Source: Oscillospiraceae bacterium (GTDB lineage Bacteria > Bacillota > Clostridia > Oscillospirales > Ruminococcaceae). Taken from it: DNA of 42,432 bases. Both the position numbers and the translations under genes were made by a program. The first letter of the stretch is position 1. Each line of letters opens with the position of its first letter. The stretch is from the NCBI GenBank assembly GCA_017465665.1, contig JAFTVU010000056.1, positions 1 through 42,432 on the forward strand, written 5' to 3'. The notes beneath the pieces were generated by a model. It ran no database searches. It was given only the letters and a program-made list of their open reading frames with translations, and was not told the origin of the DNA. Below are positions 22,291 to 25,374 of the stretch, piece by piece.

Positions 22291-22312
22291 TTTGGTTTGG
22301 AGGGTGTATTAT

Positions 22313-22987
22313 ATGGAAGAGATGGTAAGATACCGCAGTGAGACTGAAAAGGTGCTCAATAAGGGCGAATTCAAGTGCGCTTATGATCGCGAGATGATAT
22401 ATCTGGCGATAATCGGTGCGATACTGGTCGTATCACTTATAGTTGTATTACCTGTTATATTTTACATTGTAAGTTTTATGGGAAGACGAGGTCGCTTAGA
22501 TGCTTTAATCGTAATGCTGATACCGTTCTATCTCATTTTTGGTTCGCTTTTTGCTATTATATTGAACGGACGTACCTGCCATTATGACGCAGGTGAAAAG
22601 GAATTCATCATAACAGGTCCCGGCAAACGCAAAGAGTTCTTCTATTACGATGATGTGCAGGATATCCGCACCGAGGAGCTGAAGCTGTTCGGAAAGAAGC
22701 GAGGATACATCGTGACTGTTACAACGGGCGTCCGTGATATTGAGTACCGTTACATATTCGGTAAGAACAAGGTGTTCACAGGAATAGACGGTACGCCGTT
22801 CTATTATCTTGGTCTCAACAGCGGTCTGTATGTGAAAACTCGTCCGAATCTGGATAATAACATGGATACTAATGATATCAATATGATGTTTGAAAGTATG
22901 ATGGTGGAGCAGATCACCAGGAAAAATATTAATGCTACTGAATCAGATGGTATGACAAGTATGAATCAGATAAGGAGAGATATATGA
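22313..22987 (+). CDS. Membrane protein with PH-like cytoplasmic domain, paralogue 1
   Basis: A 224-residue protein of unknown function. It has two membrane helices (about 27-52 and 62-83), then a beta-rich domain: HYDAGEKEFIITGP, EFFYYDDVQDI, a basic YIVTVTTG strand and a TPFYYLGLNSGL end. This fold pattern resembles bacterial PH-like domains. ATG 22313 is preferred because GGAGGG lies 9 bases upstream. The next gene is a clear paralogue, sharing an x-GE-x-x-F-x-ITxPxxxKExFYYxDV core, and overlaps it by four bases. Both follow dgt and precede the lipoprotein/rSAM genes on the same strand. Confidence 0.75.
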   Translation: MEEMVRYRSETEKVLNKGEFKCAYDREMIYLAIIGAILVVSLIVVLPVIFYIVSFMGRRGRLDALIVMLIPFYLIFGSLFAIILNGRTCHYDAGEKEFIITGPGKRKEFFYYDDVQDIRTEELKLFGKKRGYIVTVTTGVRDIEYRYIFGKNKVFTGIDGTPFYYLGLNSGLYVKTRPNLDNNMDTNDINMMFESMMVEQITRKNINATESDGMTSMNQIRRDI

Positions 22988-23652
22988 GCGAGGATAAGGC
23001 TCTCATTACCCGAAAAGGTACATTTAAATGCATAAGCAAGGCAGCGGATCTCTTTTCCGCACTGCTTGTTGTGGGGCTGTTTTTTATTGCGGCGATATTT
23101 CTGTTGTCCTTAATAAATTTCGGAGAGGATATAAATATGATGCTTCGCCGTGCAGCGGCAATATGTATCATCATGGAAGGAACGTTTGCTGCTATACGTG
23201 TTATGCTCTCTCTTGGACGGGAATACACATATGAATCAGGCGAGAGTGACTTCGTTATTACAGACCCCAACGGAGATAAGGAATATTTCTATTACACTGA
23301 TGTATCAGCGGTGGAGTATGCTCCCATCTATAGCAGAAAGACAATTGTCGGATATACGGTGAAGATAGCTTCAGGAATACGTATGGTGAACTACCGCTTC
23401 GTTTTCGGTGCGAATGCGGATAATAAATCTACCGCAGCTACACCGTTCTATTGCCTTGAGGTCAATTCGGGTCTGCGTGAGCCTGAGGAATTCGGAGTGG
23501 ACAAGGAGCAGATCATGGCTCAGTTTGAGCGTATGCAGAAAAGCCAGAAAGCGGAGAAGAAAAAAAGCACACGCGCACAGCGTGAAAAGGAATTGCTGGA
23601 AAGCATCCAACAGGAAAATGCACAGTCTGAAAGCCCTAAAGATGAAGAATAA
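22984..23652 (+). CDS. Membrane protein with PH-like cytoplasmic domain, paralogue 2
   Basis: A 222-residue paralogue of the preceding protein. Two membrane helices (about 23-45 and 53-76) are followed by the same beta-rich core (YESGESDFVITDP, KEYFYYTDVSAVEY, GYTVKIASGIRMVNYRFVFG, TPFYCLEVNSGL). It differs by a C-terminal basic coiled-coil tail rich in Lys, Glu and Gln (about 175-222). The start overlaps the upstream stop (ATGA). Function unknown. The tandem duplication suggests a heteromeric membrane complex, which is inference. Confidence 0.75.
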   Translation: MSEDKALITRKGTFKCISKAADLFSALLVVGLFFIAAIFLLSLINFGEDINMMLRRAAAICIIMEGTFAAIRVMLSLGREYTYESGESDFVITDPNGDKEYFYYTDVSAVEYAPIYSRKTIVGYTVKIASGIRMVNYRFVFGANADNKSTAATPFYCLEVNSGLREPEEFGVDKEQIMAQFERMQKSQKAEKKKSTRAQREKELLESIQQENAQSESPKDEE

Positions 23653-23700: not shown

Positions 23701-24027
23701 ATGAAGCCGAAAAAAGCTATACTTACATTAGCGGCGGTAACTGCGCTGTTCAGTGCAGGCGGCTGTGATCTGAACAACAACGTATGTGTATACGGTCCAC
23801 CGCCTGATGATTACACCACGAAGCCTCGTCCTACAGCGGTGCAGACTACCACATTCGATCCCGCTCAGAATATCCCTGAGGAGGTTTATGGTCCGCCGAT
23901 AGATTTCAGTGAGACTGTGGAGCTTACAGCGGAGGACACGTCTGATACCGAGGATCATACAGATGAAACAGCAGAAACATCCGACACTGCCGAAACGGCA
24001 GATACAGTTGATTCAGAGGAGGAATGA
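23701..24027 (+). CDS. Lipoprotein with two VYGPP motifs (rSAM-associated), copy 1
   Basis: A 108-residue secreted lipoprotein candidate. A basic N-terminus and hydrophobic stretch lead to SAGGC with the lipidation Cys at 22 (a weak lipobox, Ala at -3). The mature part has VYGPPPDDY at 30-38 and VYGPPIDF at 62-69, then an acidic Thr/Asp/Glu-rich tail (75-108). Repeated VYGPP in tandem with a downstream radical SAM/SPASM enzyme fits the rSAM/lipoprotein arrangement I recall from gut bacteria. The motif is a likely modification site, by inference. The stop overlaps the next gene region; an AGAGGTG site precedes the start. Confidence 0.8.
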   Translation: MKPKKAILTLAAVTALFSAGGCDLNNNVCVYGPPPDDYTTKPRPTAVQTTTFDPAQNIPEEVYGPPIDFSETVELTAEDTSDTEDHTDETAETSDTAETADTVDSEEE

Positions 24028-24029
24028 GC

Positions 24030-24272
24030 ATGAAGAAGTTTCCGAAGAAGATAGCCGCCGCAGCAACATTATTTGCGGCAACGCTTAACCTTAACGGCTG
24101 CGTTTACGGCCCGCCGCCCGAGGATTATGATGAGCAGCAGAGCATCCCTTACGGATACAGGGATGAATACTCGCCTGAGATAAACGTGAATCAGAACGTA
24201 TATGGTCCGCCGCCATCTATGGAGGATGCGGAAGAAAACAACGATACCAACGGAGACAGTATAAATGAATGA
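24030..24272 (+). CDS. Lipoprotein with two VYGPPP motifs (rSAM-associated), copy 2
   Basis: An 80-residue lipoprotein. A good lipobox LNGC places the lipidated Cys at 24, and VYGPPPEDY begins at the very next residue (25-33). A second VYGPPP is at 57-62. The tail is acidic and Asn-rich. It differs in sequence from copy 1 but keeps the motif and spacing, so the motif is what selection has kept. ATG 24030 is chosen over ATG 24024 because AGGAGG (24017-24022) is 7 bases away. It overlaps the rSAM gene by 8 bases. Confidence 0.8.
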   Translation: MKKFPKKIAAAATLFAATLNLNGCVYGPPPEDYDEQQSIPYGYRDEYSPEINVNQNVYGPPPSMEDAEENNDTNGDSINE

Positions 24273-25332
24273 GGTCAAGACAGAGCATCTTAAAATGCTT
24301 GCTGAATACAAAGAAAAGCTGATGAAAGAGCCTAAGCTGAAGTTCCTTTTCCTGGAGCTTACCATGCGCTGCAATGAGAATTGCCTGCACTGCGGAAGTC
24401 ACTGCAATGATGTGCAGAGCGAAGAACTGGATGAATACACGATCATGGGATTTCTCGATAAGATAAAAAAGGATTTCGGCACTGAGGACACCATGCTTTG
24501 TGTTACAGGCGGAGAACCGCTGCTTCGCAGGGAATTTTTCGATATCATGACTTATGCACACAGGCTTGGATTTCGCTGGGGTATGACAAGTAACGGAATA
24601 CTCATCAACGATATGACGGCAAAGCACCTTGCAAGAGCTGGTATGAGCACGATTTCTGTCAGCATTGATGGCCTTAAGGACACTCATGACTGGTTCAGAA
24701 GAACTCCTAAGGGATATGCCAAGGCAATGAAAGGCATCAAGGCGCTTGTGGATAACGGAAGCTTTAAGCATGTGCAGATCACTACTGTTGTACACAAGAG
24801 GAATATTGATGAGCTTGAAGAGCTTTTCAGGATAGTGTCAGAGGCAGATGTGGATTCCTGGCGTGTCATCAACATCGAGCCTATAGGCAGAGCAAAGCAG
24901 CATCCCGAGCTTCTGCTGGACGATGATGATTACCGTACCCTGTTCAATTTCATAAAGGAAAAGCGAGAAAAGGGCTTCCCTGTGCAGTACGGATGTACTC
25001 ACTATCTCGGTCTGGATTATGAGCGTGAGGTGCGCGATTGGTATTTCCTCTGCAATGCAGGTATATATACTGCCAGCATTATGGCGAATGGTGATATCGG
25101 CGCATGTCTTGATATTGAGCGCAGACCCGAAACTATCATGGGAAATATCCTTACCGATGATTTCACAGAGGTGTGGAAGAACAAGTTCGAGATATTCAGA
25201 AAGCCCCTTGCCGATATGAATGAGAAGTGCTCCGCGTGTGAATCCAAGCAGTTCTGCGGCGGTGGCTCCTGTCATAGCTGGGATTATGATAACAATGAGC
25301 AGCAGGTATGCTTCAAGGATGTTTTATTCTGA
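24265..25332 (+). CDS. Radical SAM/SPASM enzyme, probable maturase of the VYGPP lipoproteins
   Basis: A 355-residue radical SAM enzyme. The SAM cluster is C36-x3-C40-x2-C43, and VTGGEPLLR forms the GGE motif. The TIM-barrel core continues through SVSIDGLKDTHDWFRR. From about 265 to the end there is a SPASM domain with many Cys, including C322, C325, C331, C336 and C349, enough for one or two auxiliary 4Fe-4S clusters. SPASM enzymes usually modify ribosomal peptides or proteins. The gene begins inside the second lipoprotein gene, so coupling is tight. No transporter or protease is adjacent, consistent with a substrate exported as a lipoprotein. Confidence 0.88.
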   Translation: MNEVKTEHLKMLAEYKEKLMKEPKLKFLFLELTMRCNENCLHCGSHCNDVQSEELDEYTIMGFLDKIKKDFGTEDTMLCVTGGEPLLRREFFDIMTYAHRLGFRWGMTSNGILINDMTAKHLARAGMSTISVSIDGLKDTHDWFRRTPKGYAKAMKGIKALVDNGSFKHVQITTVVHKRNIDELEELFRIVSEADVDSWRVINIEPIGRAKQHPELLLDDDDYRTLFNFIKEKREKGFPVQYGCTHYLGLDYEREVRDWYFLCNAGIYTASIMANGDIGACLDIERRPETIMGNILTDDFTEVWKNKFEIFRKPLADMNEKCSACESKQFCGGGSCHSWDYDNNEQQVCFKDVLF

Positions 25333-25340
25333 TACATCAA

Positions 25341-25374
25341 AAGGGCGGATAATATCCGCCCTTAAAATTTTGTT
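25341..25374 (+). terminator. Rho-independent terminator after the rSAM gene
   Basis: AAGGGCGGAT (25341-25350) pairs with ATCCGCCCTT (25354-25363), followed by AAAATTTTGTTT. It closes the lipoprotein/rSAM transcript and precedes the purD promoter. Confidence 0.85.

Follow-up and report, generated by a model that had tools for sequence, protein, structure and literature searches.

The accessible parts of the published work describe X-Tyr-Gly as the splicease motif, at which PlpXY excises tyramine (PMC10533398, PMC11002830), with X variable and the Tyr-Gly pair fixed (PMC10533398, PMC11002830, PMC10373908). PlpXY is further described in the available text as needing no leader and as able to act at several sites per precursor (PMC10533398, PMC10373908). 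Spliced ketoamides are reported, in the portions available of two papers, as inhibitors of proteases (PMC10373908, PMC11117315), and according to the accessible text of a 2022 review, natural spliceotides had yet to be isolated and had no known role (PMC8868522).

A further model of interest, TIGR04133 (rSAM/lipoprotein), is listed at NCBI as a hypothetical equivalog with no named reaction. MftC acts at the C-terminal Val-Tyr of its precursor and uses MftB, and SuiB, SkfB and CteB are SPASM enzymes that form cross-links or thioethers. The window analysed here, a 42,432-nt stretch (C15:1-42432) of a 2.87-Mb genome in 155 contigs, carries a radical SAM/SPASM enzyme gene together with two genes for short VYGPP proteins. 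The enzyme probably edits the backbone of these partners at the motif, perhaps by cutting out the tyrosine.

Organization of the locus

An earlier note on this DNA had described two short lipoproteins with two VYGPP motifs each, four in total, overlapping a SPASM gene, and both the open reading frames and the Pfam matches agree with this description (Table 1). The start of lipo2 lies on the stop of lipo1 (ATGA, a 4-nt overlap), and lipo2 overlaps the enzyme gene by 8 nt. The lipobox-like sites are AGGC-D and LNGC-V, the lipoprotein status of lipo1 and lipo2 being judged by eye. The motifs of lipo1 stand in the contexts C-VYGPPPDDY and EE-VYGPPIDF and its tail is acidic and Thr/Asp-rich; in lipo2 the first motif is immediately 3' of the lipobox-like Cys (LNGC-VYGPPP) and the second VYGPPP lies in the C-terminal half. 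Written as a degenerate DNA pattern, VYGPP matches the genome at exactly four places, all at lipo1 and lipo2, and the same pattern read backwards has no match across the 2.87 Mb. Each of the four copies is spelled differently in DNA, which argues that constraint at the protein level, not fresh DNA duplication, maintains them.

Table 1. Features of the YGPP locus, in window positions
Feature	Position	Strand	Description and basis
lipo1, 108 aa	23701..24027	+	Secreted lipoprotein-like partner with two VYGPP; ORF reading
VYGPPP motif 1 (lipo1)	23788..23805	+	Translation and DNA pattern match
VYGPP motif 2 (lipo1)	23884..23898	+	Translation and DNA pattern match
lipo2, 82 aa	24024..24272	+	Lipoprotein-like partner with two VYGPPP; ORF reading
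VYGPPP motif 3 (lipo2), adjoining lipobox-like Cys	24102..24119	+	Translation and DNA pattern match
VYGPPP motif 4 (lipo2)	24198..24215	+	Translation and DNA pattern match
Radical SAM/SPASM maturase, 355 aa	24265..25332	+	PF04055, PF13186
Intrinsic-terminator-like hairpin 3' of enzyme gene	25341..25363	+	10 pairs, then AAAATTTTGT; consensus match only

The enzyme is a radical SAM/SPASM protein, with CxxxCxxC in its radical SAM domain (Pfam match 9e-22) and a SPASM domain (3.8e-8), both over cut-off. The cluster motif CxxxCxxCGS is formed by C36, C40 and C43, the SPASM cysteines are C263, C281, C322, C325, C331 and C349, and the N-terminal extension is too short for an RRE. In the AlphaFold2 model (mean pLDDT 88.9) the nearest folds found with Foldseek/VIA include, among the matches listed, SuiB, SkfB, anSME, ChlB and CteB, and the titles of the CteB structure entries name a thioether.

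A pair of related membrane proteins, neither with a Pfam match over cut-off, is encoded 5' of the locus (22292-23652). The pair is kept beside the locus in the same-genus genome G017 at 51% and 40% identity, and the folD- and mazF-like neighbours are 97–99% identical; by this sequence comparison the membrane-protein stretch is fast-changing. The names folD, mazF, dgt, purD, FtsW- and UvrA-like, FHA-like and zinc-ribbon were assigned by eye. An empty-site comparison through the purD-like gene was unproductive, the other window genes being absent from the 4.4–5.3 kb before that gene in three relatives. No PlpY-like gene lies in the interval from the membrane-protein pair to the first gene past the terminator, or among the conserved neighbours of at least 70 aa at 81 loci.

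Pairing with YGPP proteins and conservation of the motif

GTDB species genomes were scanned with an alignment of three enzymes; 280 relatives were confirmed, and the best 80, at 60–75% identity, were examined. By record name these best 80 of 280 comprise 52 Ruminococcus and 79 Bacillota, strains of R. flavefaciens are among them, and many titles name ruminant guts. The earlier note had proposed a search for VYGPP proteins next to SPASM genes across genomes, and a same-strand YGPP frame does adjoin the enzyme at 79 of these 80 loci, upstream in 75 and downstream in 4, with a gap of at most 100 nt in 74 and at most 300 nt in 78. At the 80th (L104), on a contig edge, the frame that reaches the enzyme ends ...ALVYGSPPV. 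The note had also named homologues that occur without such lipoproteins as evidence against its reading, and half of this is seen: relatives lacking a lipoprotein do occur, but each of the 80 loci examined has the motif or a near variant.

Around a second centre, the genome of L080, the enzyme was found in 4 of 116 genomes, three of them new, with a YGPP partner in all four. When neighbouring genes of at least 70 aa were clustered (613 genes at 81 loci), the sole widely conserved family was that of the YGPP partners, with 88 genes at 65 loci and YGPP in 85 of these genes; no third conserved operon gene appeared, the next clusters reaching at most 11 of the 81 loci and being housekeeping-like by eye.

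Presence and absence also agree among 43 genomes of the same genus, three of which hold the enzyme at E <= 1e-25. The VYGPP pattern occurs four times in the window genome, seven times in G017, twice in G046 and once in G003, always at the enzyme locus or its remnant. The remaining 39 genomes have four matches in three genomes, none in a gene of this kind; these, in G042, G055 and G007, were dismissed as out of frame with a long gene or as lying in 66- and 40-aa frames. VYGPP is found in a partner-type gene only in the 4 of 43 genomes with the enzyme or a remnant. The G017 orthologue (L010) has the same upstream gene order and a lipo1 expanded to six VYGPP motifs, and what is left in G003, a decayed remnant, has a YGPP lipoprotein in frame with the last part of the enzyme. 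In the decayed remnant at L022:1465-1809 the YGPP lipoprotein is fused in frame to the last SPASM part, indicating that the system can be lost by deletion.

The partner set comprises 126 frames from 80 loci (79 relatives and the window) chosen for at least one YGPP, a selection that biases the counts by one motif per frame (126 of 328). Tyr-Gly is observed 456 times in these frames, against about 66 expected from composition. Tyr occupies its place in 328 of 329 xGPP, with Phe never in its stead, and of 330 YxPP 328 have Gly. Residue X is mostly small and aliphatic, with Val in 213, Leu in 58, Ala in 27 and Ile in 13 of the 328, a pattern that agrees with the published XYG rule of a variable X and a fixed Tyr-Gly. 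The prolines are swapped more often (13 YGAP, 13 YGPA, 8 YGPM). Apart from X (64% Val), none of the positions up to 12 residues from the motif is above 42%. The analysis supports the earlier view that the motif is the conserved part. The YGPP-coding 12-mers at the 80 loci, 324 in all, have 63 different DNA spellings. A frame may hold up to six copies, a [FY]DPxxN spacer recurs, and the approximate repeat consensus is [FY]DPxxNxxxxVYGPPExF.

To call the partners lipoproteins, as the note had done, is too narrow. By crude expressions a lipobox-like site is found in 70 of the 126 frames and is missing from 56, and a dockerin-like repeat is found in 45; an earlier expression gave 53 lipobox-like and 31 dockerin-like. 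Ten chosen partners compared with Pfam gave Dockerin_1 over cut-off in six and the lipoprotein transferase Lgt with a YGPP tail in one. This diversity of partners, from lipoproteins and secreted dockerin proteins to a tailed Lgt, singles out the motif as what they share. Dockerins join proteins to cellulosome scaffolds, and some of the R. flavefaciens partners are probably cellulosomal.

Unusual partners were also seen. An Lgt (PF01790, 6e-77) with a C-terminal TVYGPPEMM tail is encoded directly 5' of a YGPP lipoprotein and the enzyme at L061:2509-3558, and a membrane protein (by eye) at L052:2761-3495, on the minus strand, has CVYGPPPDDYY together with acidic repeats towards its C-terminus and appears to be a membrane-anchored partner. 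At L054:945-3123 an FHA-like protein (by eye) with VLYGCPNAD near its C-terminus, an unusual, cytoplasmic-looking partner, lies 5' of a related enzyme whose C-terminal extension is long.

Relationship to TIGR04133, PlpX-type and mycofactocin enzymes

The best model for the window enzyme is TIGR04133, at 293.9 bits against a curated cut-off of 425, and the two share a clade with support of 97/98 and 96/95; the enzyme is a sister group of TIGR04133 and a non-member by the curators' rule. At the three TIGR04133/TIGR04134 loci read (two Bacteroidota, one Treponema) the enzyme likewise adjoins a lipoprotein, with YG-x-P at most about 15 residues from the lipobox-like Cys in 3/3, but there a single YG-x-P is followed by longer sequence, whereas the partners of the window system carry repeated YGPP. 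At the Treponema locus (L137:3532-3921) the lipobox-like Cys itself would take the X position of X-Tyr-Gly (TSC-YGMP). The TIGR04134 model has no match in lipo1 or lipo2, its best score in the genome being 12.3 bits, elsewhere, and identity of the window lipoproteins with TIGR04134 was rejected, 0 of 41 genomes scoring above cut-off.

After TIGR04133 the next-best named models are those of the haem-type enzymes AhbD (150 bits) and NirJ2 (142); the MftC model gives 113 bits. TIGR04103 (PlpX) gives 106.3 bits against a cut-off of 725, lower than AhbD and NirJ2. The TIGR04133 model in turn scores PlpX-type enzymes at 152–185 bits, MftC at 108 and NirJ at 85, and a TIGR04103 enzyme on a Nostoc plasmid scores slightly higher with AhbD (154 bits) than with TIGR04133 (152). 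No PlpX-named structure is among the 50 fold matches listed for the window enzyme, and no entry of that name is among the PDB sequence matches of the window enzyme (8) or the Nostoc enzyme (7).

In the alignment, G44, S45, T174, W199, A210, E253 and R257 are shared by the YGPP, PlpX-type and TIGR04133 enzymes and seldom occur in the 11 rows of other radical SAM proteins; G44 and S45 directly follow the cluster motif. A signature of CxxxCxxCGS with W[RQ]x..PxG[RN], its residues chosen post hoc from this alignment, occurs in 84/84 YGPP, 3/3 TIGR04133 and 1/1 L054 frames and in nine of the ten frames of PlpX-type loci; the exception is L151's second radical SAM gene. Two of the 32 'other' frames carry it, but these are the window and G017 enzymes retrieved again (L168, L183), which leaves 0/30 true others. 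The enzymes of L157-L159, outside that alignment, all carry CGS and count among the positives. An expression for E253/R257 is weaker (82/84 YGPP, 3/3 TIGR04133, 4/10 PlpX-type, 5/32 others).

The window system resembles PlpX systems in that a radical SAM/SPASM enzyme adjoins an X-Tyr-Gly protein, with CxxxCxxCGS and W..P.G[RN] in both enzymes. Multiple motifs per precursor and a dispensable leader are also features of PlpX in the published work, as far as its accessible parts go (PMC10373908, PMC10533398). It differs in having no Nif11/NHLP leader, in candidate substrates that are secreted or lipidated repeat proteins, in its TIGR04103 score far under cut-off and in having one SPASM cysteine fewer: the fourth of the PlpX-type enzymes is missing, and window C336, one place on, is unconserved. 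In the first tree the window and PlpX-type enzymes form a clade with support of 52/85. A second tree is without this clade; AU p is 0.456, with two alternatives at 0.15 and 0.17. Shared descent of the two to the exclusion of other SPASM families is possible, as are the alternatives, which the AU test does not reject. For these trees 21 YGPP-type or L054 loci were tried, of which four gave no row (L050, L109, L147, L148), and 4 of 12 'other' loci gave rows. Over 69 conserved columns PlpX-type enzymes match 57–67% and MftC 59%.

An XYG peptide lies beside six of the nine PlpX-type enzymes read. The Nostoc enzyme adjoins a Nif11 peptide ending ALYGLPPELF, which in sequence looks strikingly like the LYGPPExF repeats of the YGPP partners; other peptides at such loci contain TAYGIARP, LAYGVPIHG, VMYGTGV, MLYGGAM, KPYGVAI and QPYGAG. 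The remaining loci have VYAGP (YAG) in one case and no clear XYG peptide in two (L151, L158). The GDL-motif/DUF1843 systems (TIGR03913) also have PlpX-type enzymes by short peptides, with [LP]YG in 3 of 6 read, but the peptides there are short, stand in tandem and bear the motif close to the N-terminus, and YA or YM takes the place of YG in the other 3. Mycofactocin shares with the window system a SPASM enzyme and a Val-Tyr in the precursor, the MftA read ending GVY; it differs in that the CGS/W signature residues are missing from the MftC row. An mftB gene is annotated next to the MftC gene at the locus read.

A proposed splicing mechanism and its alternatives

Each of the four VYG copies in the window partners, like the 328 YGPP of the 126 frames, has the form X-Tyr-Gly and would be a candidate site of the enzyme. 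The earlier note named no proven chemistry for the motif and overlooked the X-Tyr-Gly splicease motif described in the accessible parts of PMC10533398 and PMC11002830. It had suggested modified or cross-linked Tyr or Pro; in our analysis excision of the tyrosine appears likelier than a Tyr or Pro cross-link, since X-Tyr-Gly is a published splicease motif and the prolines are the more variable part.

We put at roughly 0.55 the probability that the window encodes a leaderless, RRE-less splicease-like system. That PlpXY needs no leader makes a leaderless substrate feasible; the low TIGR04103 score, the deep-tree result, the lack of a neighbouring PlpY and the one SPASM cysteine fewer keep the estimate at this level. 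The radical SAM/SPASM enzyme would bind its partners in the cytoplasm at the [FY]DPxxNxxxxV-Y-G-P-P-(E)x-F repeats, and a partner would then be exported through its signal peptide and be lipidated or, in R. flavefaciens, probably docked to the cellulosome via its dockerin. The surface would bear a number of electrophilic ketoamides in which P1 is Val, Leu or Ala, and these would most plausibly inhibit serine or cysteine proteases, the weakest step of the proposal. A keto group preceded by one of these residues would be suited to proteases of the elastase or subtilisin type, and from this our first guess at a role is that surface proteins or the cellulosome are protected; a possible second role is covalent attachment by way of the ketone.

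Tyrosine may instead be kept, the enzyme forming, for example, a C-C or ether cross-link from Tyr to the Val before it or the Pro after it, or oxidizing Val or Pro. We consider this unlikely, though the strongest of the alternatives. It is consistent with SuiB, SkfB and CteB being among the closest solved folds in the matches listed, with the 113 bits and 59% of conserved columns that relate the enzyme to MftC, and with the Val-Tyr end on which MftC works. However, Gly is as fixed as Tyr (328/330) and the prolines vary, a Tyr-Pro link is not obviously Gly-dependent, and the CGS/W signature is common to the PlpX-type enzymes and not to the MftC row.

YGPP could equally be a recognition tag. That it is a docking tag or structural module only, with the enzyme acting on another residue of the partner or on a haem-like cofactor, seems to us improbable, and more so than a modification that keeps the tyrosine. 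The rank of AhbD and NirJ2, both of the haem pathway, after TIGR04133 would fit such a role, as would a binding repeat of up to six copies per frame with a recurring [FY]DPxxN spacer. Against this, conservation near the motif is limited to X, even though partners differ, and the YGPP partners are the only widely conserved neighbour family.

The reading of the genes as plain operon neighbours with no functional link, and of the motif as an effect of chance or composition, draws on nothing beyond the general risk of taking operons for pathways and is very improbable, being already strongly contradicted by the 79/80 co-occurrence, the matched presence and absence in the 43 genus genomes and the 63 spellings among 324 12-mers.

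On the splicing interpretation, rumen and gut Clostridia might decorate lipoproteins and cellulosome-bound dockerin proteins with encoded arrays of alpha-ketoamides, made by a splicease without leader or RRE; we advance this wider picture tentatively, at somewhat less than even odds. If true, it would give ribosomal beta-amino acids a natural role as fixed parts of the cell surface, not as released peptides, and the TIGR04133/TIGR04134 pair would perform the same chemistry at one site, merging the reaction of TIGR04133 and the natural role of spliceotides into one testable question. Cultured hosts such as R. flavefaciens would each offer several candidate substrates, some with dockerins, and the enzymes could become compact one-enzyme tools for putting reactive ketoamides into proteins. 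The pairing of the enzyme with YGPP proteins was not found described in the literature searched, which lay mostly outside subscription papers and outside the survey of Scott et al. (2022, Chem), reportedly the key one on spliced peptides and proteins; that literature held no paper joining radical SAM with YGPP, none on TIGR04133/TIGR04134 and none on R. flavefaciens with radical SAM and RiPP, and a single paper joining XYG with radical SAM.

The YAG case among the PlpX-type loci (L055:795-2520) has its enzyme 3' of a zinc-ribbon-like protein (by eye) with the repeats VYAGPEYF, VYAGPDMM and VYAGPQYF, where Y-A-G in place of Y-G may represent a second motif class.
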